DNA from: Actinostola sp. cb2023 | Lineage: Eukaryota; Cnidaria; Anthozoa; Actiniaria; Actinostolidae | Reading direction: 5' to 3' | DNA: 64,000 nt | Assembly (NCBI GenBank): GCA_033675265.1 | Contig: JAUJYZ010000910.1 | Span: 62,001 to 126,000 of the forward strand | Shown here: positions 10,077 to 58,093 of the stretch, one piece after another | How the letters are laid out: each line of letters opens with the position of its first letter | Position numbering within the stretch: the stretch's first letter is position 1 | Translations under genes and position numbers: made by a program | The notes under the pieces: generated by a model | The model's database searches: none | The model's input: only the letters and a program-made list of their open reading frames with translations | Told to the model about the DNA's origin: nothing

Positions 10077-10078
10077 TA

Positions 10079-15454: not shown

Positions 15455-17850
15455 GTGAAAGGGCGGATTAGAGCATCCAACACTAACGCTAGTAAAGGAC
15501 GTACCTTTTCCACGCAAGTGGGTGTCAAAGAATTAGCTACTAACTCAATAGCTGCAGAGTCGAAATGGAAGTGCTTCTATTGCCAAGGTAACCATAGATT
15601 AAATGATTGTAAAGATTTTGGTGGCATTTCAAGTCAATACAAACTTCAGTTTATACGTCTAAAGAGATTGTGTGAAAATTGCCTCTCGTCTACACACTTT
15701 GCTGGTGGTTGCAAGTTACCCAATGGCTGCAAAGTCCAAGATTGTACATTTTCTCGTTAACATTTGGGTGTTGTACATCAAGCTTTGCTCGCTCTTCGTG
15801 AAGAAGACCAAGTAACAAGCAATTCAACCAACTCGTTGAATTCTACGACCAATCAGACGAGTAGCAACCAATCTGGATTCGTGGGCTCCATTGGTGAATC
15901 AACAAAGGAATTGAAGATTAAAGCTTTGCCAATTGTCCCTGTAAAAGTAAAAGGCAAAGGTCTTAGAAATATCTTACAAGTCTACACCCTACTTGATACT
16001 GGCTCAACCTCAACATGGCGCTGCTCTAGTTTAATGCAACGAATGGAAGTACAAGGTTCTGATGAGGAAATTTCTCTTAAAACCATTGAAAGAAAAGAAG
16101 TACCTGTTGCTACCCAAGAGTTAGTCTTGAAGCTATAGATATGAATGAAAGCGTTATGTTGGAATTACCAGAACTGTACACAACAAAATATCTTCATGTG
16201 TCATCAAGTAGCATCGCATTTCAAGAAGACGTCAATCGTTGGCCACATTTACATGGAGTACACTTACCACACATCAATGCGAAGGTAGAGTTGCTTATTG
16301 GTCAAGATGTGCCAACAGCCTTAGAACCTCTGGAAGTAAGAAGAAGCAACGAAAACGTGTTTAGGATGGACGCTCAATGGTCCTCTTGGCAGAAATGGTT
16401 CATCCAAGAAAAGGCAAGTCTTCTTTAGCCAACATGATGAATTATTACATGAACAGTTTACTCGCTATGTGAATTTATTGATTCTATTGCATGTGACAAG
16501 CCAACCATGTCACAAGATGACAGACGTGCTATGCAGATTTATGATAACTCAGTGAGCTTGGTGGATGGTCACTACCAAATAGCCATACCATGGAAATGTG
16601 AGTCACCAGGTCTACCTAACAACAAGCCACTTGCTGAACATCGTTTACGCCTGCTAAGTAAAAGACTACTTAAAGACGAAGTGTTGCTTGATAAGTATTC
16701 TACTTTTATGGATGGCCTTTTGGAAAAGAAAGGTTCCAGATGATCGTCTAACTCGTGATGATGGCAAAGTATGGTACCTTCCACACCATTCAGTAACGCA
16801 TTCTCAAAAGCCTGATAGTTTTAGATTGTGCTGCAAAGTACCATAGTGTATCCTTGAACAACGTAGTCCTGCAAGGTCCTGGTCTTACAAGTAAACTTTT
16901 TGGTGTCCTGACAAAGTTCAGAGAAGAACCATGCTGTTTAATGTCTGATGTCGAGTCCATGTATTACCAGGTTAGAGTTAATCCTGATGATGTGGATGCA
17001 TAACGTTTTCTATGGTTTCCTAACAACGATACAATTCAAGAGCCTATTGATTATCAAATGCTAGTCCATCCATTTGAAGGAGTTTGGAGTGCTAGTTGTG
17101 CCAATTATGCTTTGCTTCGTACAGCCACAGACAATGCAAAGAACTTTGATGTTTAGGTCGTTAACATTGTTGAATAAAATTTATATGTGGACTATTGTTT
17201 AAAGAGTGTAGAGTCTGAAGATAAAGCAATTGATCTAGCTCAAGGCTTATCCAGTTTGCTCGCTTGTGGTGGCTTTCACTTGACCAAGTGGCTCAGTAAC
17301 AGTAGGAAGGTAATCAACTCTATTCCTCTACATGAAAGAGCTAAAGAGATAGATTTGGATCTTCCTAAAGAAAGCTTGCCCATTGAAAGAGCTTTGGGAG
17401 TTAAGTAGAACATGGAAGCTGATGAGTTCATTTTCCAGATCAAGCCCAAAGAAAGGCCTGCAACAAGAAGAGGTATTTTGAGTACCGTATCATCTGTTTA
17501 CGATCCTTTGGGATTTGTATGCCCCTACGTTTTGTCTTCCAAGTCCATCCTCAGAGTTCTTTGTTCTATGGGTTGGGATGACGTCATTCCTGAAATTCAA
17601 CTCAATAGATGGAATGAATGGCTTAGTGATTTGCCCAAGTTGGAACAGTTTTCACTTGATCGCTGTTTCAAGCCTCCAAACTTTGGAACTGCTGTGTCAT
17701 ACATAAGACATACGAATGATAAAGGAGACATCAACTGTGCCTTTGTTTTTGGCAAGTCCCGCATTGCACCATTGAAGCAGGTATCTATTCCACGTTTAGA
17801 GCTATCAGCTGCTTCCATTGCTGTACGTTTGGATCAGATGGTAAGAGAGA
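15455..17850 (+). pseudogene. BEL/Pao retrotransposon gag-pol pseudogene
   Basis: The order is gag zinc knuckles (CFYCQGNHRLNDCKDF, then LCENCLSSTHFAGGC, 15580-15750), an aspartic-protease region with LLDTGST near 15990, RT with PLAEHRLRLLSKRLL (about 16630), a strongly frameshifted catalytic region (16740-17160), and RNase H/connection segments in 17187-17408 and 17412-17850 with SSVYDPLGFVCPYVL and ISIPRLEL-like sequence. This is the typical Pao layout. Numerous stops and frameshifts, missing integrase and no visible LTRs mark a decayed, 3'-truncated copy. Confidence 0.85.
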
Positions 17851-18146
17851 ATGGTAGTGAAGCTTGGTGGCAACTAGGCAGAAGGAAGAGGGAGGGTCTC
17901 GATGTAAACATGGATGTCGCCATGGCTGCAGCCGCGGCTGTTGGGAGACTGCCAATTGGTGACTTTCCTAATCCTGCTGCTAATGCTGAGGGATATGCTG
18001 CTCGAAATGCAGAGCTCCTTGAACGCTTGGTAAGATTTTGTTCGATACGTGAACCACGTTCAAATAAAGCTATCGTCAGTGTCAAGAGTCACCGTCTGTA
18101 TTTCGTTATTACATTCGTTCAAATACATTTGGCTACAACGGACTGA
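17851..18146 (+). other. Non-Pao ORF extension after a breakpoint
   Basis: The Pao reading frame continues without a stop across a junction near 17850 into a different-looking peptide, rich in Ala (VAMAAAAAVGRLPIGDFPNP) and ending ARNAELLERL at a good splice donor (TTG|GTAAGATT, near 18030). I recognise no family. It may be an exon of another gene or transposon joined by a rearrangement. Confidence 0.35.
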
Positions 18147-19873: not shown

Positions 19874-20640
19874 GCCACTCACTGTTGTGGCGCCGCGTCG
19901 CTCTCTCGGGGACCGCGGTGGGGTGAGCTGGCTCATGTGCGGGAGCTAGTTTCTTCGTCTGGTAGCACGGACTCAAGAGCCTCCGATCCTATCACCAGTG
20001 GGTAGGACAGGCTGCAACCGGAAGGGCTGGGGGGGTAAACCGCTCAGTCACGAATACTTGAGACAGCTCCAGACGACAGGCTATTGGGGCGGCGGCTACC
20101 ATCATACCGTCCTGGGGGGGCGGGGCTTCGCTGGCCGCGTCCACCCCTAGTTACTTTGCGACCACAAACACAAATGGAAAGACAATCACGGGCCTTCCTA
20201 CCGAGGGCCCAAGCATTGTAAGAAGTAACACCAAAGCGAGGGTCGATTACCCTGTGATGAACAACCAGATATGTTGCTGTTGCGACTATCTCGTAACCGA
20301 CCATAAGCACCTTCGGCGCCATTTGCAGACCAACCACCAGATTGGCCCGGAGGATGCTGTCTATGTCTGTCGGAAGTGTAGCATAACCTTCCCAAAACTG
20401 ACGTCGATCAGCAGACACAACCACCAGTGCAAAGGTGCACAAGTACCGGAACCGGACAAAGAACACCGTTGTTCGGAGTGCGAACGGAGCTTTAGTAGCT
20501 TCGCGGGAGTTCAACTCCATCGCAAGAGAAAGCATCCTCTCCAATATAATGATCAGCTCCCAAATCCATCCAACAGGGGCGCATGGAATACAGACGATTT
20601 GCGAGCACTAGCCGCCAGAGCCTTAGAGTTAAAGGGCCAG
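19874..20640 (+). mobile_element. R2-like copy B, 5' part
   Basis: Homology to copy C begins abruptly at 19874 (CCACTCACTGTTGTGG) after unrelated sequence, so copy B lacks the first ~600 bp of the 5' region seen at 35736-36350. It runs through the 5' leader and all three zinc fingers, and is interrupted at 20640 by Harbinger. Confidence 0.85.
20257..20640 (+). CDS. Three-zinc-finger N-terminus of R2-like protein (copy B)
   Basis: The protein starts around MNNQICCCCDY, although the frame is open further upstream. Finger 1 is CCHH (C-x2-C...HLRRHLQTNH). Finger 2 is CCHC (CRKCSITF...SRHNHQC). Finger 3 is CCHH (CSECERSF...LHRKRKH). This CCHH-CCHC-CCHH order is what I recall for the three-finger (A) branch of R2 proteins, where the fingers and a Myb-like motif contact the target DNA. 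The frame is cut after RALELKGQG by the Harbinger terminus, so it encodes only a truncated protein. At protein level it is identical to copy C. Confidence 0.75.
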
Positions 20641-21556
20641 GGGCCGGTTGCATAAAACTTACGAGTCTACTTAAGTGTACTCGTAATTTAAGGTGGGACC
20701 GGAGGCCAAATCGGCTCAAATTGCATCAATTCGTATCAGTATTTGAAAACACTGAAACTTGCTGGTAATAAACGCAAACGTCATGAAACTCTCCACTAGT
20801 AACCTACATAAAGCAAAGATCGCGATAAAATGAGAATTTCTTTCGATAGATGTTAAGTTATGTCAGGAATTTGAAGGTTCTTGAAGGGTGAGTGACAACA
20901 ATAGAAATGTCAAAATCCTGTGATATCTTCATTTTGCTTTATTTTATCAAAATAAAAATTATACCAACGATAGATGACCATTCAATCCACATTTTAGCCA
21001 GAGTGCGCCACAAAAAAAAATAATCCAGAGTCATAAAGTCCAATGTAAGAGGTCAAAATTGTGTTCGGCCGAATATTGTTCGTAACATAAACACCACGTG
21101 TCGTACGATGGCGCACTCTGGCCAATCGAGCCTTCATTATGTATATTCCAAGTCGAGCAATTTATATTTCGCCCACATAAATCCTTCAGTAGTAGCATAT
21201 GAGTTCCCAGACGCTTGTATCATCAACTTGTGCAAAAAAACGCGAAATAAAGCGAATAATTCCACGATTTCAAGCAAAATCAAACTCACACAACCTCCAT
21301 GTTCATGTGAAGCCTGCTGTATAAATATACAGCGGTTATCTTGAATAATCTACTCTTTATATGGTCACAACGACCATATACGCACTACAAGATTTCCCGC
21401 GAAACCAATCAGATGGCCCGTTCATGCCATATCCTAGCAACGACACCTCCGCGACACCTTCGAGACCACATGCAGGTCAACAAACATCATATTTCAACTA
21501 AAGTTTACACAGCGAACGCGTATTATTATCGAAGAAGTTAAAACTCTAAAAAACAC

Positions 21557-24500
21557 ATGGATTTAAACAAATCCCGTGGTCGTGGAGTGGGATCTCGGAT
21601 CCCTTTTGATTTTGAAAGACTTGAAAGTCTAAAATGGACTGTAAATCGACGAGAAAGTGGTGAAAAAAACACACTTCACCTTTACATCTCCCGAAGGCAA
21701 ACGGGTGAAGACGGCAACCGAAGTTCGAACAATGTTAGAAGACAGAGGACAGTGGGATGCCGTTGCCTATACCAAGGACGACAGCAGTGAGGGCAGCGAT
21801 GCAGACTACGAACCACCTACTAAAAGGGCGAATGACCAGACGCTAAGCGAGTAAGTTTACATGAAATCGTTCACATAAACACACGTGAAATTATTATTTT
21901 TCTGGATTCTCTTGCTAGCTGTTATCCATCGAGAAGATTTCAACAATGTTCGATTAGACCAAGGGAACTCATTCCCTTAGTATACTGTAACTTACTCACA
22001 GTTAGTGTGTAATAATCGAGGTTGAAGATTAGTGATCGTAAGCATATAATTTATAAGCTTACATGTATAAGATACATTGTCAATGAGAGCCGGTATAGCC
22101 TGTCATCCTAACGGTTTCATCCTAACTTATAAGATGCTATAGCTAAAATATGTCATGTATGATTCTAATTGATGTCAGCATCGTTTTATACCGCTTGTTC
22201 TTGAAGATTTGCTGTTATTTCTATTGTTTCAGAGTAACAGTTCCAGAAGGGTTGTTTGTGGGAACAACCTCAAGTATTTTGAATCTTGTTGGCGATTTTA
22301 ATAAATATTTCAAGTGCCCATCAAAGGAAGGACAGTGTAAAGGTATATATATTATGCACACTAATTTGCATGTAAAGCTATAACTCATTGTACCATTGCT
22401 GTTTACTACTAGGGAAGCTTGTTCTGACTGCATCAGAAAAGAAGGGGTTAGGCGGTGGTCTGTGCTTGACATTCAAGTGTTCAGGATGTTGGTTGGAGGA
22501 AGTCGCCTATAAGAGCAGCCAGTTAGCCTTGGATTCTAGGAGACAGTTGGTGTCGTTAGCCCTTTCCTTAGCGTTTTTTGTTAGTGGTCATGGGTATGCT
22601 AGTTATCGTAAAACGTTGGGTAAGGGGTTGGGACTGTCTGTTGTGTCTGATAAGCCGTACTTAGATGTTATACATGTTGCATTCCCTTACATCAAAGAGA
22701 TCTTAGATGAGATGTGTGATGATGTAAAAAATCAAATGAAGGCTATCTCACCCAATGTTATTGGGAGTTGGTCTCGTGCCGTAACCACATGTGATGGATG
22801 TTGGCAGATAAGGGGATATTTCAGTCAAAATTGCACTTTTATCATAAAAAACTATCTCACAGGTGGTCTAATATACTATGGCCATCTGTCTATGAGAGGT
22901 GCAGACAATGTTTGCGATGAGGAGTTGTGGAAGGGCACTGCAAAAGCATCTGAAGGACACTTGGCTCAGGTAATAAAATATTGGCATTTTGCGATTCAAT
23001 ATTGCAAACAATTAGCATTTATTGGGCGAGGTTGAGTCAGTGGCGAGCAGAATAATTATATGCCGAAGGCAGAGGCAACTAATTATCTGCGAGCCACTGA
23101 CAAAAACCAAGTTCAAAAATTGTTTTATCATTCACATTATTTTCTCTCACCTAAAGTATTAACTCTGGAGAGCTGCCATTGTCAAGGAGAACAAAAACAC
23201 TTATTCGTAGGAAGTTATCTGCAGTGACGTAGTCGTCTCTCGACCAATGAAAATCATGTAGAAAATAATGTGAATGATAATATTCAATAACAATCAATAA
23301 TATTGCAAAAATAATCAGAATATTTTGGTATTCTGATAACAATATTTATTGACTATTTCTCTATTCGCCATTACATTTGTTAGTGTGGAAGTGAATGAAT
23401 CAAAATAAATAGTATTTAACCCATTTTATCCCTTCCAAAGAACAACATTGTTAAATTATTGCAATACAATTTAGCAATATTTTCTAAAAATATTGACATA
23501 TACATTTGTATTTGGCCATTAATGATTACACATTCCGGATATTACTTTGATTTTTTTCTTATATCAATGTTATATTGCTATCATAGGTTCTATGGGCTAA
23601 AGCGAAGGAGGAAGGGATGAACGTGGTAGTAAACTGGCAGGATGCAGACTCCTCATCTGCAAAGGGATTTCGTTACTCATATCATGATGAAACGGAATCC
23701 AAAATTATGTTGTGTGCGGGTCATGTGGGGAGGGCTCATGGAAATAAATTGCAGGATCTTCAAAGTAAGTCCTCTTTTACTAGCCAACTTATCGCCATAC
23801 ACAAAGAAGCATTTCCTGAAATTCAATCGGTGAAATGTTGTTGTGCGGGCAAAAAGCATGTTTATGTTTCGACTAGAAACAGACCTGCGTGTGGATGCAT
23901 GGGACCTGGATTTTATCCTGGCTGCCAAGTGCAATCATTTTTGTGCTGTGGTCCAAGCTGGTAATGACCCTGACAAGTACAGGCGAACCATGCTGACCCT
24001 TGGCAAGTATCACAGCAGGGACATACATGAGTGGGAGGGGGGTTGTTGTGAATTTCATCCGTTAGTAAAGTGTTCTTGTAAAGGGTGTGATGTAGATGAA
24101 CATGGGTTTTGCCCAGACATGAAGTGCTCTGGAGAGCAATACCACTCTTCTCATGTCCTGAAGTGTGACTTCCATGGACTCGCATATGAGATTGAGTGTG
24201 CTCAGAGAGCTAAAAAGGCTGAGGAGGTTATTGACTCTTCCTTAGGGAAGGGACACTCTAATCTTCCTGAGTCTACGTTCAGTGTACTTACTAAGTTTAG
24301 GGCTAAAGACATCAACCTACATCAAACCCACTACCAAGCATCAACCAACCTTGGCTTGCTGCAGTCCAGCATGACGTGGTGCTACAAGAACAGGGGCCCT
24401 GAGTACCATTGGATTATTGAACTATATTCAAGGATGGGCCTTCCTGTTTTTGATGGCATTCAACAAATGGTATGTATTGTAATTTTAAATGCATTTTTGT

Positions 24501-25343
24501 AAATTAGGCCCATTATGAATGTCAAACTTTACTTGTATCCAACCTAATAATAATATTATTATTGTGTGCAATATATTCACGTGGAGTTGACATTTGAACT
24601 GGGCCTAATAGGTAAATAAATTTCACATATCCCAAATGTCTGTTAGTCCTGGGGGAGGGGGTACTCCCTTTGTCCAGGTATTAGGGGTGATCGGCGATTG
24701 TTTTGGGGTTCACATATTTCCTGTGTGAACCTTTTAGGGGATCCGACTCTAAAGTCATTTATCTAATCCCGGTTATAAGTCCTGGGCTTATATAACTTCG
24801 TAAGGGTTTTGTGGTCAAAGGCTGTTAGTTAGTTTATTTTTTTATTTGCAGTGCCAAGACGACAACAAACAAAGAATGGTAAAACTCGGAAAGAAGCAAA
24901 CTTTGGAAGGTAAACGAGGAAGGATTCAACTGAAGGTTAATCGGGTAGAGGAGCAGAAGATAAGGTGAGTTTTTATGTAATATATAACTTTTTGGTTTGC
25001 ACACATTTACGTTATCTAGCTAGCGAGGTGTCTATCTTAGAGAGAGAGACCTGTCCCATATATAAAGTGGTGGAGATGCATGTCATACCTTTTTGGGTTT
25101 GAAATCTGCAATTTGGTACCACTTAGAGAGGGGTGGGTCAGATTTAGAAGGAACGCCGAGTCAGTACCTTTTAGGGTGTCCGTCAGCTTATTGTTTTGAG
25201 AAACCGTTTGGAGACATCGCAAATCAACCACAAAATGCAAAGGAATAATGTACTTATTGTTTTAGATTTGGTATTTAATGCCATGGCCACTTGGAAGAGA
25301 CTCCTTTCATTTCCAATGAGCATCCCCACCACTTTCTATGTGG

Positions 25344-25380
<37 letters not shown>

Positions 25381-25838
25381 TAGGGTCCACACAAAGTCAT
25401 CTAACTTTGACATGTGTTATGGTAGATGGTATCAATGTAGAGAGTTGACTGAATATACATAGATGACCCTTTTACAAATGCAATGTTATAACATACAGTA
25501 ATATTCATTGCCTTACTAGGAAGCGATACACTAAAAGTTGCCAGATTCGGCATACATATGGAGAGGATGACGACGAACAAGTATTGGAGGAAGATGTGCT
25601 GCTACGGCTCACAGAAAGAGCCATTGAAGATGGAACTGCCCCCACTTTACGACTTGTGGACAGTGCAGTCCTTGCTCCAGAAGGAGCAACTGTGTCCATT
25701 GGGGGCAAGCGCTGCAAGTCATGTGGTAGTACATCCCACATGAGGAGCAGTCACAAGGATTGCCCCAATAACAAAAAAAAAAAACGCATGAAAAATATAA
25801 ATATATACATTTTATCTAGAGGCTTGGTACTGTTATAA
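21557..25838 (+). CDS. Kolobok transposase, six coding exons
   Basis: Exons are 21557-21850, 22233-22342, 22413-22969, 23587-24469, 24852-24964 and 25520-25838; all introns are GT-AG with consistent phases. Exon 1 carries an MBD-like block (KWTVNRRESGEK... then FTSPEGKRVKTATEV). Exons 3-4 hold the catalytic core: TTCDGCWQIRGYFSQN (first Asp), WQDADSSSAKGF (second Asp), GCMGPGF, and a C-terminal WIIELYSRMG region. Cys/His-rich segments (CSCKGCD) suggest zinc binding. Exon 6 ends with a knuckle-like CKSCGSTSHMRSSHKDC and a Lys run. Two single-base homopolymer insertions break the frame: A7 near 21663 in exon 1 and T4 near 23913 in exon 4. They are either real inactivation or sequencing error. 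The catalytic assignment is by analogy. Confidence 0.8.
25351..25380. repeat. Poly-C tract in a Kolobok intron
   Basis: A run of about 31 C in intron 5. The proline-rich open frame across it is an artefact. Confidence 0.85.
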
Positions 25839-26809
25839 AGAATTGTATCAAGATTCTTTTTTGTAATTCTGGCATTTGCGTGCACTGCTAGTTTCAATAT
25901 ATATGTGCTCACACAAAATGTTTTCTTTTCCATACTGATGAAGGTCTGATGAATTTTTGATCAAAGACCGAAATGTCTATATTTTTAATCTTTTATAAGT
26001 CAGAGACAAATCCAAAGTAATAAATATAATAATATTTATTTCATATACATAAACACAAACAAAATTACATGGATTTCATCAATTTATTATTATATCTAAG
26101 TGGTGGAATCAAATTATTATCATGTGGCAATTTTTGTTATATACAAAATTGGCAAGCGAGACAATCTGTCTTTTGTTTTGATTTTTCTAACAATTTATTC
26201 CTTGTAAGCGAACAGTAACTGTAAATAATAATTTGTAAATAAACTGTATATAATATTTTTCATTATACAGTGGTAAAAATATAATCTAAAGAGAGCAAGG
26301 AAAAAAAACATAATAATTGTGTTTTATAATAAATTGTTAATATGTACATGGCTGTTTATGTGTTTCCTTGCATAAATTGAAATAAAATTATTTATTTCCT
26401 GGCAGGCCATCTTGTCTGTGCCAGGTCTTGGACAGTGACTATGTAGACCTGTAATGCACAAATAGTTACTATCAGTGAAATATTGTGATTATTATAACAT
26501 GAATAGATGTCACTCTATATCATGGTATTCTCTCAGGGGGAGGGATCATTTCAAACAGCTGTGTCAGGTATACAAAATAGTAATCGAATATTATAGTTTC
26601 AACACTAGGGTTCTCACAAATTTATTATTGTCACTAAAATATCGAAACTGGAGCATTCGTAGGTAAGCTGGTAAGTATGTATATTATAGAATACCCTGCC
26701 ACAGTATATATGCATAACAATATAACCTATTGTATTTTGTGCCGTTTTCAAAGAGTGCCGATATAAGAGCTTGAATTCTATAATTGCATAGGGCAAAGAA
26801 AATAAGAAC

Positions 26810-27651
26810 ATACCCCTGGTCCTTCTGGATCGTGGAAGTTTTGAATATTTCCACTTACGCATATCCTTATTGCCTCCTTCAAGAAGGCAGGATATACGTA
26901 AGTGGGCACTTCTCCCGGTTTCTGTGGGTGAAATGACCCTGGCCAACGTGGTTGCCATGCTGTTGAATAAAAACGAAAGGAATTTCACCACTAATGCACT
27001 TTCTCAGTTATATAATTAGTTTTTGAATTCTGACAATATTGCCAGTGACCTTCTTGTCAAGAAGCGTAATTGTGCGCCATATAAATATAAATAAAGTCGC
27101 GGTCACATAATAACACGTGCGTACACGGCGCATCATACAATTGTTTTTTCTGGCAAAAAGAACACTGATATTTATCAAAGCGAAACCACCTTTGTTGTTG
27201 CCTTTTCATAAATCAGAGTGTTTCTTATCGCTATTGCAAACAAGGCTATGCAAAGTGCCGAGGCATGAGGCGGCAAAGGAGCAAACATGTAAGGACATTA
27301 TTTTGATTTGTCTTGCACAAGACAGTCACAACATTTATAATACGAACATAACTCACCCAAAGAATCCCAAAGATCCGCCTATATATCCGACGGCGCCCTT
27401 GCTCGTTCGTTTCTCCTTTCTTGAGTGAGAACTTCTCAATGATTGCCCGAAGGCCACGTGGAGCTGGATTGTATCTATAACATTGAATACGCCACTAATG
27501 TTAGTATTTATATCATCATAAGCTTATGTAATTTTGATATGATTTTCAATGTACATGTAACTGGACTAGCTAATAGTGTATCTTACCCGTTGCTCGAGAA
27601 AGCAAGTTCAAAATCTGCGAGAGCTTGTCTCTTCGCTCTTGTGTGCGCCAT
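26810..27651 (-). CDS. Possible spliced minus-strand ORF in Kolobok
   Basis: Exon 1 (27651 down to 27587) begins MAHTRAKRQALADFELAFSS and ends at a consensus donor (GG|GTAAGA). Exon 2 (27474-27357) follows an acceptor TTATAG and joins in phase to give NGYNPAPRGLRAIIEKFSLK, ending at TGG|GTGAGT. A third segment (about 26964-26812) follows a pyrimidine-rich acceptor (TTTTTATTCAACAG) and ends at GGG|GTATGT. It is open in one frame (MATTLARVISPTETGRSAHL), but that frame is not the one continued from exons 1-2. I recognise no family. It could be a second Kolobok protein or a captured host gene. Confidence 0.4.
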
Positions 27652-28452
27652 TATTCACGTAGAGTATTCAGTGAAGTAAGTTGAGAACAACTCAGCCAAG
27701 CGTTTTATATGCCAAGGTGTGAATGTGCGAAATCTGTCAAAAATCTGCACAAGCCGTTGTCATCGACGAACATCGATTTCTTTGTCTTGCAGTGTTGATC
27801 TTCTGTTTTGCCGCGAAAATGTTCTCTTAGATACCAAACTTTGAATGCTTATATCTCGCAAAGTAATAAATATATCCATATCTAAAACTCGGAACTTATA
27901 CTCAGAAATGTAATTTATTTCGATCAGTGAAGAAAAAACAACCAAAAATGAACATCAAACTAGCCTCCGGTCCCACCTTAAGACTGTTGCAAAGAATGAG
28001 TTAATTGCTCACTTAAGTGTTTCACTTAAGTATTGGATCTTACGATTATCGTAAGTGACCACTTAAGTGCTGTTTATGCAACGACATATACGGGTGTTGC
28101 ATAAACGTATTGCGCCCATATCTTAAGTGCACAAGTCGTCCGTAAATTTACGGGAGCCCTAGAGGTCCCGTAAAACTAAGTGCGTTATGGAAAATTTTAC
28201 TTTCAGTTTAAAATTTCCTTCAATATTTTTAATTTATAAACATATCATAGCCTTGTATTGTAAGTGTGTTTATTTGGACTAATTTGGAGATATATTTTCT
28301 AAAATAAAGTATTGTGCTATTTAGCGCTATTTTGCAGCATACATGTATGCACATTTTATGTAAAGAAGATTCGACAAGCAAAGTTTGTCATTTTTAGGTT
28401 TTATTTTTCCTGCCGCTAGATTATAATTAACAATATGCAGAACACACTTTGA

Positions 28453-29537
28453 TTAAGAAAAGAAAGATCTAATGAACTCTGCTCTTTGTTGTTTTCCTTC
28501 CTCAGTTTCCTCAGTTTCTTGGCCATTATTAGAACAGTCATCAAGACCAATGTCGTCTAACTGTCCCTCTTCATCATTAATTGGAAGATCACGGCAATAA
28601 TTGTGTAAAATACAACAGGCGACAGTTATTTCACAACACTTGGCAGGCTTCATTCTGAGCTCCTTTAAGCACGCCCAACGTCTCTTTAGGATACCTATAA
28701 TTCTCTCTATCATAGAGCGTGTAGATCTGTGGGTCTTGTTATATAGCTTCTCGGATGCCGTCATAGCTGGATATTCCACAATGGGGACTAAAAGCCATGT
28801 TAACAATGGATAGCCACTGTCACCCAGAATCACACCATTAGGCAAACGTGGTAATTGCTGTTGCTTGAACTTGTCATAAAGACTTGAGGTTTTTAAAATT
28901 CGCGAGTCGTGGACTGATCCTGGCCATTTTGCCACAACATCTGTAATCATTAATCTTCCATTCCCGCATATTTGAACATTGATAGAGTGGAAGTCTTTTC
29001 TGTTTACAAACACCACTTCATGATGTTTTGGTTTCACGATTTTTATATGAGTTCCATCTATAAATCCCTCGACGCACGGAAAATGGTGCAGTTCATGCAA
29101 TTCTAAAGCAATTGCTGCGCATTCTGGCTCACTGGGCCAATATATATACTCCTTCCTAAGCTTGAGAATTGCTGTTATAACTCTTTGGATAGTACGGCTA
29201 ACAGTACTTTTATGTACATTTATCGTATCACCAATAACCTGTTGAAAAGATCCGCACGCAAAAAAAAAAAACGTAGGCCTATCATGAGTTGCTGAGAGGG
29301 AAGAAGTGCATGGTTTCGTTGAGTGTTGTGTTCGAGATCATCGTGAACATACTGGAGAAGTTCATAGAACTTTGCTCTGGGCATTCGAAATCTTTTGAAA
29401 AAGGCATCATCAGATAAGACATCTAATGGGTTTTCTCTGTCTCTGAATACTCTAGGCCTACGTAAATGTCTCTGTTCAATCCTTTCATGAAGTTCTGCTA
29501 TATGCTGCAAATTTTGGAAACGGTGGAGATCGTACAT
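28453..29537 (-). pseudogene. Harbinger transposase copy 1 (HARBI1-type), frameshifted
   Basis: The DDE transposase of PIF/Harbinger elements, related to animal HARBI1, starts at ATG 29537. N-terminal part: LSDDAFFKRFRMPRAKFYEL, the usual helix-turn-helix-bearing region. Catalytic core: GFIDGTHI (first Asp), LGDSGYPL (second Asp) and SMIERIIGILKRRW (Glu). It ends near EGKQQRAEFIRSFFS. The only defect is an A12 tract near 29262-29273, where copy 2 has A7; the five extra bases shift the frame after 91 codons. The length implied by both copies is about 359 aa. It is divergent from the Myb/SANT gene across a tandem-repeat region; the two proteins normally act together. Confidence 0.88.
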
Positions 29538-29617
29538 GCTGGAAGAGTGAAACGTTTACTACCTTCTCAACTACATCAAAAGCATTGCACTTGTATAAAA
29601 ATGTCAAATTATAAAGA

Positions 29618-30022
29618 ATAGTTTCGTTGCATAATGCGATGACATAACCTCAAAATAACCCCCTAATTGTACAATAGAACAATTTATGTCCAAAGCTTCG
29701 TTGCATAATGCGATGACATAACCTCAAAATAACCCCCTAATTGTACAATAGAACAATTTATGTCCAAAGCTTCGTTGCATAATGCGATGACATAACCTCA
29801 AAATAACCCCCTAATTATACAATAGAACAATTTATGTCCAAAGCTTCGTTGCATAATGCGATGACATAACCTCAAAATAACCCCCTAATTATACAATAGA
29901 ACAATTTATGTCCAAAGCTTCGTTCCATAATGCGATGACATAACCTCAAAATAACCCCCCTAATTGTACAATAGAACAATTTATGTCCAAAGCTTCGTTG
30001 CATAATGCGATGACATAACCTT
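29618..30022. promoter_or_regulatory. Six 74-bp tandem repeats between divergent Harbinger genes
   Basis: The unit start TTCGTTGCATAATGCGATGA recurs near 29621, 29697, 29771, 29845, 29919 (one base changed) and 29994. The array fills the space between the two divergent starts and is kept in copy 2. A likely TATA box (TATATAAA, 30162-30169) lies about 57 bp before the Myb/SANT ATG. I infer a bidirectional promoter or transposase-binding array. Confidence 0.75.
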
Positions 30023-30225
30023 TCAAAACTGACAATAAAGTTCAAAAATCTCAAAGCGTTTAACCGGGCGCTTTTTCGGTTCAAGGTTATATAACAATCG
30101 CATAATTATAAAAACAGTGACTCTCATCAGAATAACAATACTTGGGCATTTGAATGAAGCATATATAAAGGTACGAATCAAGTATCTACTCAAGGTTTTT
30201 TTCTACCAAGAATTTGTAAGTGAAG

Positions 30226-30942
30226 ATGTCGAAAAGAAAGCTTGAAAGTGATGATGGACCAACACGAAAGCGAGCACCGAACTTCAAACAAGATGAAGTG
30301 AGATTTCTACTCAACAAGATTAGAAAATCTAAAGGGACGTTGTTCGGCGCACTAAGCCCAAAATTAACTTTTCACATGAAGACAGATGCATGGCTAAAAA
30401 TTAGGGAGGAACTTGCAGCAGCTGGATACCCCAAAAGAGCGAAAGAACAAATTAAAAAGAAGTGGGAAGACGTTTCTTCAGCAACGAAAGCAAAGTATCA
30501 CAAGAAAATGAAGACTGGTGGCGGTGCAATCGAGTGGAGCGGAAACGATGATATGGTTACCGAAATTCTTGGTAAAGAAAACCCTTCACTGACGTCAATA
30601 GACGGGGGAATAGACTCTGGTGAATCGTCAACAACGCAACTAAGCACGAATAGCTTAGATGGAGAACAGTCAGATGGTCATGAAGCCTTGGAAACGACGA
30701 GTGAGCAGTTCAACTCAGAGCAAGATATTAGTTGGGAGGAGAATGTGCCACAACAACCAAAGAAAGAAGAAAAGAAAAGTCCACAAGTGAGAGCAGGCGA
30801 CACCACAATCATAAGTAATCTGTACGAACAACAGTTAAAAGAGGAACATGAGATTAAAATGCGAGTATTAAGAAAGAAAGAACAATTACTAGACCTACAA
30901 ATTACAATTGCAAAAGACGAACTCGCACAAATAACTGAATAG
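30226..30942 (+). CDS. Harbinger Myb/SANT-like DNA-binding protein, intact
   Basis: The 238-aa accessory protein of a PIF/Harbinger transposon starts at ATG 30226 (MSKRKLESDDGP). Residues about 20-95 form a Myb/SANT-like trihelix (FKQDEVRFLLNKIRKSK ... AWLKIREEL ... QIKKKWEDVSSATKAKY), similar to NAIF1-type domains. The middle is acidic and Ser/Thr-rich. Residues about 198-236 form a charged coiled coil (QLKEEHEIKMRVLRKKEQLL). In known Harbinger systems this protein takes the transposase to the nucleus and to transposon ends. A TATA box lies 57 bp upstream. The frame has no defect, unlike the partner transposase. Confidence 0.85.
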   Translation: MSKRKLESDDGPTRKRAPNFKQDEVRFLLNKIRKSKGTLFGALSPKLTFHMKTDAWLKIREELAAAGYPKRAKEQIKKKWEDVSSATKAKYHKKMKTGGGAIEWSGNDDMVTEILGKENPSLTSIDGGIDSGESSTTQLSTNSLDGEQSDGHEALETTSEQFNSEQDISWEENVPQQPKKEEKKSPQVRAGDTTIISNLYEQQLKEEHEIKMRVLRKKEQLLDLQITIAKDELAQITE

Positions 30943-31277
30943 ATAAATGTGCTCATTTTACTTTCCTTCATTTCATCAAGTAATCCGTTTACATTTTTGT
31001 ACAATCGATGTTATTCATTTTTGAAAGCTTTTTGATTTATTAGCTTCTATAGGTTTTGTTAATTATACATTTCTGTAATCAAATTCTATGAGTTCTACGA
31101 ATTAAAAATATTTATGCTTAACCAAGAACTTAAGTGTCCCCGTAAATTCACTCTTAAGTAATTCACTTACGAATGTGTTAAGTAAGCTTCATGCAACACG
31201 CTTTAGGAAACCCGTAACACAATCTTAAGTGCCTCACTTAAGATAACACTTAAGTACAGGTTTTATGCAACCGGCCC

Positions 31278-33961
31278 CTGGGCAAGATTAATATCAAACT
31301 TAATCTGCTCTTTCCTCGACGAACCATTCAGGCCATCAGTTCGGTTCGAAAGACAGTCGCTTACAAACGAATTCTCGAAGACCTGGAGTCTTCAGAATTA
31401 CAACTTGAGGAAGTTGATGAGGAAATCCAACCCCTAGCTGGGATAGGGGAATCCATCGAGGTATCTCAGGACGAGATTCATCCCCTACCTGGTGTAGGGG
31501 TCACTGAAGATCTTCCTGAGGGACCACCCTCTTTTGCCGAAACCTTATTCAGCGGAGACCTGTCTGACGAGGAGGTCCTGTCCAATCGGGTCCTCTTAAT
31601 TGATGTACTCAAGCGGAAACTCTATGGTGAGCCAAGGCCAAAAGCCACTGTAGCGGGGTCTCTAGAATATGCCATCATGGCTCTAGAGAGTAATGACTGT
31701 GACAAAGGGTTTGATACCCTATCGAATCTGATGTATCCCATTATACGGCACCGAACGACCAATCGCCGTAATCAGCAACTTTTTCGACGCAATCGGAAAA
31801 ACAGTTAGCTGGTGTAGTATTGGACGAGGCGGCCACTGACACACCGTCACCCGAATATTGAAGATGTTGAGGCAAGTTTCAAGGACAAATTCGAACGTCC
31901 TGATCTTTGTTGATTTGTTGATGAAAGCCCGTACGTCCCACAAGAGTGCCCCTCGGGGGACACTTTAGCTGAACCTTTTCAGCCTTGATGAGATCGAAAA
32001 GGCCGTACGACAGTTAAAGATCCGTAGTGCTGCTCCAGGGCCAGATTAAGTAGTTTGGGCACAAACCAACGCGGGTCCTTGCGAAAAAAAAATCCCACGC
32101 CAAGCGCTGGGTAACATTTTCAACACGTGGGCGTGGGTGCGTTAGCTAGAGTTCCCACTTTTAAAGGGAAGAGAAACGAAATCCCGAACGACTCTTATTC
32201 CGAAGACCACACGTTCTTGCGAGGAAATAATTTAAGAGACGTCAGTCAAAAATTGAGAGGTTCGGGTTCTCTTTTGTATTCTTGCGTCTTTCTACACCAA
32301 AACTTTCTGGCAGCCAGCCGGCTCAGTGTGTGAGCGTCCCCACTCTTCAACCCTCGACACCCCCAATTCTTTTGGTCCTAGGGGGGACTTTGTTTTTTCT
32401 GACCAGTTTTTTTTTTTTTTTTCTTTTGCTCATTCTTTCCTTTTATTTTTTTTTTTCTGTTCTTTGTTTTGGAGGCGTTAGGAAACGCAACGGTCAATCT
32501 ATCTTGCTTTGTTTAGATTCGTTTTTCTAGCAGAGTTTTTAGACCGCTCATTTATTTTCTGTTTTTTCCTTCTTTTTTTTTTCTTAAATTTTTTGATTGT
32601 TTTTTTTTGATATTTTATACGGTAGTTTTGCTTTACTTCTTTTGACGCATTTTTTGTCTTCTCGGATCAGCAATGCGGACTTGTCGTATTTTAAAATTAA
32701 GGGAAAAAAAAATAAGAGAATGAACCTAGAAAAAAAAAAAGTAAAAATTTAAAAGAGGTTCGGGGGATTTTACCTCAAGGAGTAAAGAAATTCAAAAACC
32801 CAAAAAAAACCGAAAATTAAATACCCCTAAAATAATGATAAGTAAAAAACTTAGGGGCCAAAAAAACAAAAACCAAAATTGGTAACCAGTAAAAAAAAAA
32901 ATGTAAAAAAAAGAAACAGAGGGCAAAAAAGAAAAACCAAAAGAAAAAAAAAACAAAAAAAATAAAACTGCAGGGGAAAAAAAAAAAAGAAAAAAACTGT
33001 ACAAAAACTTAAAGGAAGGAAAAAATAAGAAAAAAAAAAACAAAAACAAGTAAGAAAAAAAATAAAAAAAAAAAACAAAAAGCAAAATTTAAAAAATTTC
33101 AAAAAGATTAATGTAAACAATGGAAAAAAAAAGGATAATAAAAAAAGGCAACCTTGTAAAAAAAATGAGCAATAATAGAAAAAAAAGACAAAAGAAAAAA
33201 AAGAAATATGAGTTAATTTACTTTCGAGTAAAAAGTTAGAAAAAAGAAAAAAGATGATAAAAAAAAAAAAACAAAAATGGAAAAAGTCCATAGAAAAAAA
33301 AAACAAAAAAAAATTAGAAGGAAAAAAAAAACCAAGCACCAGATAAAAAGACAAAATCTTTATACAATGTGGAAAAAGGGAATTTCTAGTGTTAATACGG
33401 ATAAAGGTGTTTAAGCAAGGGAATGCTTAGGGATTTATTATTCAATCTTTAGCCCGCAGGGCGTTTGATTCCGGGCCACACAACTATCCTTAGCATTTTT
33501 CTTTTTTTTTTAAGGGATGCTTGCACCGATTTCTTTCAAAGTCAAGTAGTGAGGGATCGCTACCATGGGTTCCATGACTAAAGCAGGGATATCCCCTCTC
33601 ACCGCTTTTTATTCAATCAAGATGTGATGGATGAATTCCTGGACCAACTTGTTGAGAGGGATATGCATTTGGAGGAGTTAAGTCCACCGGACTTGCCTTT
33701 GCGGACGACTTGGTACTGTCCCATTCTACCCGGAAGGGTTAGAACGAATGCTTAGACAAGCCGAGGATTTCTTTCAATCCAAAGGGATGTCGTTTAATCC
33801 TAAAAAGTGTCGTACGATCTCGATGCTTAAGGCCAAACGCAGGAAGACTCTGAAGGTCATTACGAATCGACCGTTCCAACTACATGGAGCAGATATTAAG
33901 CAGTTATCCATTGTGGATGCTGTAAAATATCTTGGGTTGTATTATGACGCACGAGGACGAA
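31278..33961 (+). pseudogene. R2-like copy B, linker and RT, corrupted
   Basis: It continues copy B after Harbinger. The linker (31278-31740) matches copy C closely, then errors rise: extra homopolymer bases, duplicated short words and dropped bases. From about 32380 to 33530 the homology is barely followable. Good sequence returns at about 33540 and runs through GYPLSP-equivalent, the AFADDLVL region and KYLGLYYDARGRI to 33961, where homology stops. It shares with copy C the loss of a 14-bp block before the LWASRL segment and the GGATATCCCC variant, so B and C come from one defective parent. Confidence 0.75.
31740..33540. other. Low-quality or corrupted consensus, A/T homopolymer-rich
   Basis: Recognisable R2-like words are interleaved with inflated homopolymers; 32690-33360 is almost only A runs with scattered other bases. 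Compared with copy C, errors increase gradually rather than starting at a breakpoint. That looks like sequencing or assembly degradation rather than biology. Phe-rich minus-strand frames here are meaningless. Confidence 0.7.
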
Positions 33962-34188
33962 TTTATTTTAGTGTTTCGAAGAAAAGGAAATAATTGTTGT
34001 TATTATACTACTATTACGTAATTTTACCTTATACGGTCAAGCGAACTCGAAAAATATGGAGCCGTATTACCATAGTTCTAAAAGCCGTATTACCATAGTT
34101 CTAAAACTGGTTTCACTGCAAAGTTTTGAACATTTTGTAGCGTCAGATCCACTGTCAATCAGAGTACAGACAATGGGAAACCGCTTGC
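33962..34188. repeat. 227-bp direct repeat, left copy
   Basis: Begins TATTTTAGTGTTTCGAAG and is nearly identical to 34484-34708. It contains its own short repeat (AGCCGTATTACCATAGTTCT) twice. It sits exactly where copy B loses its RT and C-terminal region. Confidence 0.85.
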
Positions 34189-34385
34189 CCGAGCTTTGGT
34201 GTATAAACCAAACCCTTGAGCCTACTTTGTAGACTCTTGCACCCAGGTGTAAGTCGCTTCAGTGAACTCACTCACTTTTTATCTATCTATCATTTTTATC
34301 ACTTTCTATCAGACGAGTTATCATTTTTATAGAGTGAGTAGCTGTTGCGCATCTTGGGAAACGGTACAAAATCTCAAAATCTATG
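34187..34385 (+). mobile_element. R2-like 3' untranslated fragment (copy B)
   Basis: Matches 43437-43632 downstream of copy C, from CCCGAGCTTTGGTGTATAAA to GGGAAACGGTACAAA. It lies between the two 227-bp repeats. The endonuclease-coding part that should precede it is missing. Confidence 0.8.
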
Positions 34386-34483
34386 CAAGATGCAAGTTTC
34401 AATAGAGAATGACTAATCTCGGGTTTAATATTGTTCCCACCATCGTAACTGAATACTTGGGTAGTACATGTTGGCTTGATTTT

Positions 34484-34708
34484 ATTTTAGTGTTTCGAAG
34501 AAAAGGAAATAATTGTTGTTATTATACTACTATTACGTAATTTTACCTTATAAGGTCAAGAGAACTCGAAAAATATGGAGCCGTATTACCATAGTTCTAA
34601 AAGCCGTATTACCATAGTTCTAAAACCGGTTTCACTGCAAAGTTTTGAACATTTTGTAGCGTCAGATCCACTGTCAATCAGAGTACAGACAATGGGAAAC
34701 CGCTTGCC
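34484..34708. repeat. 227-bp direct repeat, right copy
   Basis: The partner of 33962-34188. Sequence after it (ATTTCTTTTTAACAAT) is unique, so this is probably the native copy. Confidence 0.85.
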
Positions 34709-34950
34709 ATTTCTTTTTAACAATAACAAAGTCAAAAAATCATCCAAAAGCAAGGATAAAGTTTGAAAGAACAACCGTTTCAAGCGCGCGCTGGATCCGT
34801 GCGCGAGCGATTCGTCATTCTATGTGTCTGTTATTGTAAAAGAGCGCGCGGACCTTGAAAGGTTTTGAAATAATTTTTAGATAAATTTTCTCCAAAACGG
34901 ACAATTTTTTTTTCGTTCAAAGTAGTATAATAAATAACTTATTTGGAATA

Positions 34951-34971
34951 CCAGCCCGTAATACGGGCTGG
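34951..34971. repeat. Palindrome CCAGCCCGT-AAT-ACGGGCTGG
   Basis: A 9-bp perfect hairpin with a partial echo (CAGCCCGTATTATGG) near 35043-35060. The two may be ends of a small foldback repeat. No gene is seen in 34709-35154. Confidence 0.6.
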
Positions 34972-35155
34972 TATTTTACTCGTTACTCGCATTTTTCATT
35001 GTCCCTTCGGGACTCGGAAAAATACATTTGCAACTCGTAAAATATCAGCCCGTATTATGGGGGAAAAAAAAAAAATAAGATAGAGTATTGCATTGTTTTA
35101 TAGCGAGATTACGTTTCTATAAAATAATACATGTAACTATATATCACCCTAGAAA

Positions 35156-35362
35156 CCCTGTATTCACTGTATATAATCACTGTAATCAAGTGTATTCACT
35201 GTAATCTCTGTATTCACTGTATTCAAGTTTATTCACTGTCTGTAATCAAGTGTATTCACTGTATTCAATGTAATCACTGTATATAATCACTGTAATCACG
35301 TGTATTCACTGTATATAATCACTGCAAATCACTGTATTCAAGTGTATTCACTGTAATCACAA
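35156..35362. repeat. Irregular 'TGTATTCACTGTAATCA' minisatellite
   Basis: Repeats of CACTGTATTCA and CACTGTATATAATCA units in variable order over about 200 bp. Confidence 0.85.
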
Positions 35363-35469
35363 GATACTTATTATAGTCAAAGTTTTGTTGAACAGACGTT
35401 TCGGGATGTCTACTTCATCACTTAATATCAATATATATCTATATATAAGCCGTTTCATAAAGTTATATC

Positions 35470-35625
35470 ACATTTTTTCTCTTCAGCGCTTCTGTGATGA
35501 TATGCCCTATGACTCTGCGATGTGCACACACCTTCTGTGATTCTTGCACATAAAGACTTTGCCAATCGGTAACGGAACCACATTGCCCCACGTGCAGAGG
35601 CGATTGACATCCAAGCCATAATTCG
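35470..35625 (+). pseudogene. RING-finger exon remnant
   Basis: After an acceptor-like TTTCTCTTCAG (about 35485) one frame reads VMICPMTLRCAHTFCDSCT, resembling the CPxC...CxHxFCxxC half of a RING with its middle deleted. A later frame contains HCPTCRGD, the last Cys pair. Stops and a frameshift separate them. It is likely a decayed E3-ligase exon. Confidence 0.5.
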
Positions 35626-35653
35626 CAACCTGATCCACCAGGATACAGTTGCC

Positions 35654-35702
35654 AACCTTCAGGCCAGGTGCAACGTGGCGGGTTGCACCTGGCCTGAAGG
35701 TT
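35654..35702. repeat. Perfect 21-bp hairpin, 7-nt loop
   Basis: Arms AACCTTCAGGCCAGGTGCAAC and its reverse complement flank GTGGCGG. It lies 34 bp before the start of R2-like copy C homology. Confidence 0.9.
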
Positions 35703-35735
35703 AGGTTGCAAAGCTGAAACTAACCCCGTCCGTGG

Positions 35736-37142
35736 GCCTGCTTGCACCGTCGCTGTTACCCTTTGGGACCCCTGATCAAACTGGGGGAGCGGCTGGCGTC
35801 GCAACCCGCATACACTTTGTGATCGATGGGGGTCAACGATAGTCACCTGAATAAGGTGTCTGTCTTACAAGGGTACAGCCTGTTTCTACGGAAACGGGGT
35901 GACTTGGCGTCAGGATGTGCCCAACCAGGTTGTTGGATGAATTGATACCTATCTGCGGCTGCTAGAACCACCATGAATCACTGGCTGGGGCAGGCAGACT
36001 GGGTATATTACCCAAGTGTTTACAACACACTACTTATATGTCTATCATTGTCTGTCGCCCCGGCAATATTATAACTGTATGCAACCTGACCTATCTGGGT
36101 GTGGGGCTTCGGTTCCTCACTCTTGTACGGTCTCAAAACGCCAAAATTCCATCAAAACCATCGTGCTGCAGGAGACCTTAGGGGGGAGTCCACTGGAACC
36201 CCTCCTTTAAGGTCCTGGTACCCATACTTAGCAGTCGCAGATCCAACCAACCATTGATTTACTATTCTGTCAGGCGTTTTAGAAAGCACCCTCGGGCCGC
36301 AGACACCAATAGGGATGATTTCATTAGCAACATCAAAATCATCTCGCCGCACACCACTCACTGTTGTGGCGCCGTGTTGCTCTCTCGGCGCGGGACCGGG
36401 TCCTTGGGGGGGGCCCCGGTGGGGTGGGCTGGCTCATGTGCGGGGGCTAGTTTCTTCGTCTGGTAGCACGGACTCAAGACCCTCCGATCCTATCACCAGT
36501 GGGTAGGACAGGCTGCAACCGGAAGGGCTGGGGGGGGTAAACCGCTCAGTCACGAATACTTGAGACAGCTCCAGACGACAGGCTATTGGGGCGGCGGCTA
36601 CCATCATACCGTCCTGGGGGGGCGGGGCTTCGCTGGCCGCGTCCACCCCTAGTTACTTTGCGACCACAAACACAAATGGAAAGACAATCACGGGCCTTCC
36701 TACCGAGGGCCCAAGCATTGTAAGAAGTAACACCAAAGCGAGGGTCGATTACCCTGTGATGAACAACCAGATATGTTGCTGTTGCGACTATCTCGTAACC
36801 GACCATAAGCACCTTCGGCGCCATTTGCAGACCAACCACCAGATTGGCCCGGAGGATGCTGTCTATGTCTGTCGGAAGTGTAGCATAACCTTCCCAAAAC
36901 TGACGTCGATCAGCAGACACAACCACCAGTGCAAAGGTGCACAAGTACCGGAACCGGACAAAGAACACCGTTGTTCGGAGTGCGAACGGAGCTTTAGTAG
37001 CTTCGCGGGAGTTCAACTCCATCGCAAGAGAAAGCATCCTCTCCAATATAATGATCAGCTCCCAAATCCATCCAACAGGGGCGCATGGAATACAGACGAT
37101 TTGCGAGCACTAGCCGCCAGAGCCTTAGAGTTAAAGGGCCAG
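35736..37142 (+). mobile_element. R2-like copy C, 5' part
   Basis: Homology with copy A starts at GCTTGCACCGTCGCTGT in both, which probably marks the element's 5' end or close to it. The long leader (35736-36758) has no conserved ORF. The zinc-finger ORF follows and is interrupted at 37142 by Harbinger copy 2. Confidence 0.85.
36759..37142 (+). CDS. Three-zinc-finger N-terminus of R2-like protein (copy C)
   Basis: Protein sequence is identical to copy B: CCHH, CCHC and CCHH fingers, then a linker ending RALELKGQG where Harbinger begins. The continuation of the same protein resumes at 40495. The start is uncertain: the frame is open upstream of the first ATG. Confidence 0.75.
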
Positions 37143-37663
37143 GGGCCGGTTGCATAAAACTTACGAGTCTACTTAAGTGTACTCGTAATTTAAGACTGTT
37201 GCAAAGAATGAGTTAATTGCTCACTTAAGTGTTTCACTTAAGTATTGGATCTTACGATTATCGTAAGTGACCACTTAAGTGCTGTTTATGCAACGACATA
37301 TACGGGTGTTGCATAAACGTATTGCGCCCATATCTTAAGTGCACAAGTCGTCCGTAAATTTACGGGAGCCCTAGAGGTCCCGTAAAACTAAGTGCGTTAT
37401 GGAAAATTTTACTTTCAGTTTAAAATTTCCTTCAATATTTTTAATTTATAAACATATCATAGCCTTGTATTGTAAGTGTGTTTATTTGGACTAATTTGGA
37501 GATATATTTTCAGGAAAAAGTATTGTGCTATTTAGCGCTATTTTGCAGCATACATGTATGCACATTTTATGTAAAGAAGATTCGACAAGCAAAGTTTGTC
37601 ATTTTTAGGTTTTATTTTTCCTGCCGCTAGATTCTAATTAACAATATGCAGAACACACTTTGA

Positions 37664-38744
37664 TTAAGAAAAGAAAGATCTAATGAACTCTGCTCTTTGT
37701 TGTTTTCCTTCCTCAGTTTCCTCAGTTTCTTGGCCATTATTAGAACAGTCATCAAGACCAATGTCGTCTAACTGTCCCTCTTCATCATTAATTGGAAGAT
37801 CACGGCAATAATTGTGTAAAATACAACAGGCGACAGTTATTTCACAACACTTGGCAGGCTTCATTCTGAGCTCCTTTAAGCACGCCCAACGTCTCTTTAG
37901 GATACCTATAATTCTCTCTATCATAGAGCGTGTAGATCTGTGGGTCTTGTTATATAGCTTCTCGGATGCCGTCATAGCTGGATATTCCACAATGGGGACT
38001 AAAAGCCATGTTAACAATGGATAGCCACTGTCACCCAGAATCACACCATTAGGCAAACGTGGTAATTGCTGTTGCTTGAACTTGTCATAAAGACTTGAGG
38101 TTTTTAAAATTCGCGAGTCGTGGACTGATCCTGGCCATTTTGCCACAACATCTGTAATCATTAATCTTCCATTCCCGCATATTTGAACATTGATAGAGTG
38201 GAAGTCTTTTCTGTTTACAAACACCACTTCATGATGTTTTGGTTTCACGATTTTTTATATGAGTTCCATCTATAAATCCCTCGACGCACGGAAAATGGTG
38301 CAGTTCATGCAATTCTAAAGCAATTGCTGCGCATTCTGGCTCACTGGGCCAATATATATACTCCTTCCTAAGCTTGAGAATTGCTGTTATAACTCTTTGG
38401 ATAGTACGGCTAACAGTACTTTTATGTACATTTATCGTATCACCAATAACCTGTTGAAAAGATCCGCACGCAAAAAAACGTAGGCCTATCATGAGTTGCT
38501 GAGAGGGAAGAAGTGCATGGTTTCGTTGAGTGTTGTGTTCGAGATCATCGTGAACATACTGGAGAAGTTCATAGAACTTTGCTCTGGGCATTCGAAATCT
38601 TTTGAAAAAGGCATCATCAGATAAGACATCTAATGGGTTTTCTCTGTCTCTGAATACTCTAGGCCTACGTAAATGTCTCTGTTCAATCCTTTCATGAAGT
38701 TCTGCTATATGCTGCAAATTTTGGAAACGGTGGAGATCGTACAT
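37664..38744 (-). pseudogene. Harbinger transposase copy 2, one-base frameshift
   Basis: Same protein as copy 1, starting at ATG 38744. Here the A7 tract (near 38473) keeps the N-terminal frame open through GDTINVHKSTVSRTIQRVI, the helix-turn-helix absent from the readable part of copy 1. A T6 tract near 38250 (T5 in copy 1) shifts the frame just after FIDGTHIK. The core with LGDSGYPL and SMIERIIGILKRRW is otherwise intact to the stop at 37664. The two copies thus carry different lesions in an otherwise near-identical gene. Confidence 0.88.
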
Positions 38745-38826
38745 GCTGGAAGAGTGAAACGTTTACTACCTTCTCAACTACATCAAAAGCATTGCACTTG
38801 TATAAAAATGTCAAATTATAAAGAAT

Positions 38827-39228: not shown

Positions 39229-39434
39229 TTCAAAACTGACAATAAAGTTCAAAAATCTCAAAGCGTTTAACCGGGCGCTTTTTTCGGTTCAAGGTTATAT
39301 AACAATCGCATAATTATAAAAACAGTGACTCTCATCAGAATAACAATACTTGGGCATTTGAATGAAGCATATATAAAGGTACGAATCAAGTATCTACTCA
39401 AGGTTTTTTTTCTACCAAGAATTTGTAAGTGAAG

Positions 39435-58088: not shown

Positions 58089-58093
58089 CTGCT

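Follow-up and report, generated by a model that had tools for sequence, protein, structure and literature searches.

A Kolobok DNA transposon lying inside a PIF/Harbinger transposon, which itself lies inside an R2-like retrotransposon, was identified in 64,000 nucleotides of the sea anemone (Actiniaria) Actinostola sp. cb2023 (contig C860, positions 62001 to 126000, referred to here as the window), and this nesting is confirmed as real. The interrupted R2-like element (copy A) has three further relatives in the window (copies B, C, and D), of which C carries the Harbinger without the Kolobok and D carries neither. The initial annotation held that the order of invasion could be read directly from these sites. 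The sequence R2, then Harbinger, then Kolobok stands, but a copying step between A and C, placed between the arrival of the Harbinger and that of the Kolobok, had been missed. The divergence between A and C is uneven, which points to a mosaic, and the history is not fully readable from the junctions alone. We consider it probable that R2 copies were followed by one Harbinger insertion, then by recombination copying between A and C (most likely gene conversion), and finally by insertion of the Kolobok into A. Each of the three layers belongs to a known kind of element, and in most respects this is an ordinary case. It is nevertheless well resolved: the succession of transposon insertions can be ordered from sites that are shared or empty, and a DNA transposon has probably acquired a second copy by way of the element it sits in. 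The features that carry this history are as follows.

19875-20640, plus strand: left half of R2-like copy A, 5'-truncated, with three zinc fingers (diverged edge, 19875-19985)
20638-20640, plus strand: CAG, left flank of the Harbinger (empty site in copy D, CCAGGGCAAG)
20641-31277, plus strand: PIF/Harbinger (NuwaI-like) of copy A, holding the Kolobok, recognized by inverted ends, transposase and Myb genes, and empty sites
20688-20691: TTAA, left target duplication of the Kolobok
20692-27977, plus strand: Kolobok transposon, 7286 bp, with 15-bp inverted ends (GGTGGGACCGGAGGC)
22376-23035, plus strand: piece of the Kolobok transposase (Pfam Mutator, PF20700, E 1.8e-8, above the curated cut-off)
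23834-24502, plus strand: downstream open frame in the Kolobok (no Pfam match at E 0.001)
27978-27981: TTAA, right target duplication of the Kolobok
28453-29337, minus strand: Harbinger transposase (DDE_Tnp_4, E 1.8e-37; 94% identical to P0085)
29623-30021: 74-bp tandem repeat in the Harbinger, 5.4 units (in copy C at 38830-39228)
30220-30942, plus strand: Harbinger Myb/SANT DNA-binding protein (Myb_DNA-bind_5, E 2.9e-14)
31278-31280, plus strand: CTG, right flank of the Harbinger, one base off CAG
31281-33963, plus strand: reverse transcriptase half of R2-like copy A, by match to copies C and D
35701-43631, plus strand: R2-like copy C, by match to A, with the Harbinger and without the Kolobok
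37143-40491, plus strand: Harbinger of copy C, 3349 bp, free of the Kolobok
57178-59918, plus strand: R2-like copy D, a fragment truncated at both ends, without the Harbinger (empty site, 57494-57512)

The innermost layer is the most sharply bounded. The extent, inverted repeats, and flanking TTAA first proposed for the Kolobok are borne out by the sequence, by the Mutator match, and by other ends in the genome. With the TTAA included, its ends form a perfect inverted repeat of 19 nt, and the termini (GG...CC) fit the 5'-RR...YY-3' rule. Matches listed across the assembly (424 Mb, 1594 contigs) numbered 6 for the left end and 20 for the right, the window's own included. The right end ran into TTAA at all 11 of the other places read (19 other matches listed), 2 of which have a common flank and appear to be two haplotypes of a single locus. 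The left end adjoined TTAA at two of the four other places read (five other matches listed); the other two have CTAA instead, with one common flank. The open frame at 23834-24502 is possibly a later transposase exon, and a frame overlapping it (23587-23964) gave a weak Mutator match (E 0.0067) under the curated cut-off. A 4-bp TTAA duplication, 5'-RR...YY-3' ends, and a Mutator-type transposase are shared with the Kolobok superfamily as described in PMC9587614. The long terminal direct repeats of the KolobokP lineage were not seen, placing the Actinostola element outside that lineage. Its target lay within the copy A Harbinger, 51 bp from the left end of that element, and at the corresponding position copy C has a single TTAA (37190-37193) with sequence matching that of A on either side. 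Copy C is thus the empty Kolobok site, as had been proposed.

The Harbinger ends form a perfect 18-bp inverted repeat (GGGCCGGTTGCATAAAAC) that starts with GGG and extends to 22 nt, still perfect, when the CCAG and CTGG of the flanks are included. The ends and family first assigned to this layer are upheld, but its CAG and CTG flanks fall short of a perfect direct duplication of 3 bp, the right one being one base off. In A and C alike the left flank is CAG and the right flank CTG, while the empty site reads CAG, so that a single-base change in the right duplication is probable. Elsewhere in the genome, the 3-bp flanks were identical, and of the form CWG, in 16 of 18 other Harbinger pairs from 20 fetched stretches, the exceptions being CTG/CTC and TAG/CTG (19 rows, with one left-left pairing dropped and six unpaired ends left uncounted). 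This analysis relied only on whether the flanks of a given copy agreed with each other; an apparent bias toward CAG at the left flank (24 of 26 cases, including two from the window) was dropped because the query contained CCAG and favored such copies. The four paired copies measured elsewhere were 3336 to 3360 bp long. Copy D reads AAAGGGCCAGGGCAAG at 57494-57509, with the R2 reading frame continuous through the site, and so gives the empty Harbinger site, as originally claimed. Three more places, on contigs C1350, C574, and C400, are likewise contiguous across it.

The CWG target, GGG ends, and separate DDE transposase and Myb/SANT genes resemble those of the NuwaI group of PHIS transposons in PMC4482050, where inverted ends of 12 to 61 bp are given, a range that includes the 18 bp found here. 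The same source includes one anthozoan among the reported NuwaI hosts. The Actinostola insertion differs in having unlike flanks, CAG and CTG, and its 3.35 kb is below the mean of ∼4.46 kb reported there. At three loci (L012 on C1260, L013 on C802, and L030 on C900), Harbinger copies were seen head to tail with one CAG (or CTG) in common. Insertion of a GGG...CCC element at CCAGG remakes CCAGG at either border and could thereby account for arrays of this sort.

The relation between copies A and C is central to the history. Among the 41 matches listed for the joint R2-Harbinger sequence (Harbinger left end plus R2 flank; best 40 of 98 first-look candidates scored), the combination was present only in A and C. 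The two copies are alike in the Harbinger site, in the CAG/CTG mismatch, and in the 74-bp array, and they carry one insertion of shared descent. Two independent insertions at the same R2 base are ruled out by the common flank mismatch, the common array, and only 4 differences in 3293 aligned sites of the main Harbinger part. Comparison of their outer parts involves three further features.

31762-33579: low-quality stretch of copy A R2, inflated by homopolymer runs
33959-34189: 231-bp segment splitting off the 3' end of the copy A R2, 98% identical to 34478-34708
34187-34379, plus strand: R2-like 3' end, of or next to copy A, 93% identical to 43436-43631 of copy C (9 mismatches)

Over the clean middle, from which 31762-33619 was excluded, A and C differ by 8 substitutions in 4822 sites (0.17%): 0/655 in the fingers (19986-20640), 0/52 and 4/3293 in the Harbinger, and 2/484 and 2/338 in the right-hand R2 part. 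The outer R2 pieces, at 5 to 6%, are far more diverged. The 5' edge (19875-19985) has 7 substitutions in 110 sites plus 23 gap columns (Fisher P = 1.3e-8), and the separate 3' piece has 9 in 192 (Fisher P = 2.7e-9) as counted by BLAST; a MAFFT count of 14/189, shifted at the last bases, was not used. This contrast argues for a mosaic and not for a plain second insertion. At the seven differing edge sites, a more distant copy on C400 sides with A at five and with C at two, and the edge of A is therefore not just a degraded copy of that of C. The left flank of A is unrelated to that of C. Segmental duplication of the locus with its flanks is unsupported; in the stretches compared, the homology of A to C stopped at the limits of the R2 copies.

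A history accommodating these patterns would begin with an R2-like retrotransposon outside the ribosomal DNA (rDNA) that left several copies close together. A PIF/Harbinger of NuwaI type, with a CWG target, would have inserted once into one R2 copy at CCAGG, between the finger and reverse transcriptase parts. Two R2 copies ∼5% apart would then have been made alike in their middle, with the Harbinger carried over. We infer that this copying took place at the DNA level by recombination, for which the likeliest form is interlocus gene conversion, in either direction, between A and C as neighbors of the same orientation; related homology-driven copying would fit as well. If it passed through the low-quality stretch, the tract would be up to ∼5.7 kb, from ∼36486 to at least 42211 of copy C, including the 3.35-kb Harbinger. 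The Kolobok would have come last, into the TTAA in the copy A Harbinger, and copy C would never have held it.

Several observations weigh against this history. In the 3' piece, where the last bases of the alignment are unreliable, the outgroup copy on C1350 sides with A at five sites, with C at six, and with neither at two. The first part of the low-quality stretch (31762-32359), which lies outside the substitution count, differs from C at 11 bases and 81 gap columns, and 33579-33963 differs by 3 bases by BLAST. The 3' piece may have inserted separately, in which case direct evidence of a mosaic would be confined to the 110-bp 5' edge, and some of the similarity between A and C could stem from misassignment of reads during consensus building.

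In the main rival account, copy A would instead be a retrotransposed copy of C or of its source, the Harbinger having traveled within an R2 RNA, with 5' truncation, an edge acquired by template switching to another R2 RNA, and the Kolobok inserted afterwards. Such an origin would fit the 5' truncation of A relative to C and its unrelated left flank, both of which target-primed reverse transcription predicts. We nevertheless regard it as doubtful, as the body of A ends at the position matching 42211 of C without an adjoining 3' end, and the 3' end nearby is 9/192 off C. In addition, no duplication was found around A, although the search could overlook very short ones, and the Harbinger breaks the R2 frame, so that another copy would have had to supply the R2 protein.

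Assembly of error-prone reads could also account for the close similarity of A to C, or even for there being a Harbinger in A, and the homopolymer runs in 31762-33579, far outside those of the rest of the window, do read as noisy R2. The Harbinger and Kolobok junctions, however, lie in clean sequence, with Harbinger on both sides of the Kolobok and an exact TTAA duplication, and the flanks of A are unrelated to those of C; an artefact is accordingly unlikely. Less probable still, and in our view improbable, is that the Kolobok already sat in the Harbinger when the copying took place and that C afterwards lost it precisely. Seamless excision would also leave a single TTAA in C, but an extra event would be needed, and C has no footprint, while excision of single KolobokP ends is reported in PMC9587614 to leave nucleotide footprints. 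Insertion of the Kolobok after copying between A and C remains the preferred account.

The outermost layer was assigned from protein matches. As first described, the zinc finger and reverse transcriptase halves of the R2-like protein lie outside the Harbinger, which is inserted between them, and both are supported by matches to R2 structures. The reverse transcriptase, read from the continuous frame of copy D, matched 10 PDB sequences (best E, 4.4e-85); of the best 5, 3 are named R2 and 2 (8gh6 and 8ibw) are named reverse transcriptase-like protein (R2 of Bombyx). Bit scores were 289.5 for 9nl3, 288.9 for R2Tg (9dou), and 278.9 for 9nl2, compared to 255.6 for 8gh6 and 251.4 for 8ibw. The restriction-like endonuclease region (42367-43389, copy C frame) had no Pfam match at E 1 and matched the C-terminal regions of R2 proteins (best E, 5.1e-23), with bit scores of 76 for 9nl3, 75.4 for R2Tg, and 84.9 for 9nl2, compared to 48 for 8gh6 and 44.4 for 8ibw. 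The three zinc fingers (copy C frame) were spanned by matches to 9nl2 (E 2.5e-7) and R2Tg (E 4.7e-6); their CCHH-CCHC-CCHH pattern was read by eye, the Pfam finger models matching only under their cut-offs. Where a Myb domain would be expected, the copy D frame 57135-58088 had no Pfam match at E 1; the 8gh6 match extends from finger 1 into that region. An AlphaFold model of the zinc finger part had a mean predicted local distance difference test score (pLDDT) of 38.3 and was not used. R2Tg is a lineage A protein and Bombyx R2 a lineage D protein in PMC13188248, so that in these matches to structure proteins the Actinostola element scores nearer lineage A.

No Rfam match, whether to ribosomal RNA (rRNA) or to anything else, lay in the window or in five stretches around other R2-like copies, and these places accordingly do not show the insertion at the 28S site that distinguishes R2 in the strict sense. 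The host element is thus the least expected of the three layers, combining R2A-pattern fingers and a cnidarian host with copies that, where examined, have no rRNA nearby. R2NS-1_SMed and R2NS-1_CSi are also R2 superclade proteins outside 28S rDNA, but in PMC5035012 they belong to R2D and R2C, whereas the Actinostola element has the CCHH-CCHC-CCHH pattern described for R2A. Sponge elements with R2-type domain order outside the 28S site differ in their hosts and are placed by their authors in neither lineage A nor lineage D. Other cnidarian elements are R8Hm-A and R8Hm-B of Hydra. These are placed inside R2A in PMC5035012; the target of R8, according to PMC7650587, is the 18S rRNA genes, in contrast to the absence of rRNA matches near the Actinostola copies examined. 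Tentatively, a family of R2A type outside rDNA in a cnidarian would represent a further loss of rDNA targeting, here in clade A, together with a Harbinger multiplied by the gene conversion of its host and not by its own transposase. The host is also relevant to dating the origin of the three-finger R2 architecture. In one of two scenarios, offered as speculation in PMC13188248, the lineage A configuration was gained after Cnidaria diverged, while PMC5035012 already has cnidarian R8 elements in R2A.

The R2-like family looks rare. Its finger-to-reverse transcriptase region was found at ten places in the genome, a count in which A and C each appear twice and B has an extra entry as a haplotype, and its 3' end was found at three, that of A among them. 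The protein closest to the reverse transcriptase of the window is itself from Actinostola sp. cb2023 (79% identical over 43% of the query), and its residues 1 to 310 and 428 to 583 are encoded on C1350 at 100% identity. The R2 copy there (C1350:193431-207219) has its 3' end ∼12 kb from its body and is probably interrupted by other insertions. The remaining features of the family in the window are the following.

6367-9298, plus strand: R2-like copy B, a fragment lacking the part where the Harbinger site would lie
57081-57177 and 59919-60015: 97-bp direct duplication flanking copy D, long for a target duplication

Clean ends had been claimed for every layer, which applies to the Kolobok and the Harbinger but not to the R2 of copy A, with its noisy interior and split-off 3' end. 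Bases in runs of ≥6 numbered 140 and 137 per 500 at 32501 and 33001, against a window median of 0. The R2 in 31762-33579 is recognizable only in pieces, although homopolymer-compressed sequence matches C in parts; the stretch looks like unpolished read sequence, an assembly-quality problem. The 3' piece has the right order and orientation relative to the copy A R2 body. The 231-bp segment between them holds the start of a high-copy repeat, with a few shared bases at its junctions. It can be read as templated filler in a deletion or as a target duplication made by a short R2 insertion of its own; the 97 bp repeated on either side of D show that duplications of some length are found beside members of this family. 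In comparison of A with C and D, the flanks of the empty sites matched. The 5' end of C is probably near 35701 and not 35736.

No alternative-haplotype contig or second full-length place for A or C was found with queries 34380-35738 and 44900-46900 (best 40 of 2108 and best 40 of 3466 candidates scored, respectively). A literature search on Actinostola, genome assembly, and transposable elements found no paper. The end of contig C459 is the likely alternative haplotype of window positions 1-10672 (97.7% and 99.2% in two long pieces), and this match ends at 10672, short of A and C. Between A and C lies a high-copy repeat of ∼560 bp (34519-35081); query 34380-35738 is the one with 2108 first-look candidates in the genome. 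A Pao retrotransposon peptidase frame occupies 17409-18146, and the end of the window (60142-64000) is a tandem duplication of ∼1.85 kb (60142-62139 versus 61986-64000, 97%) with inner repeats of 155 bp.

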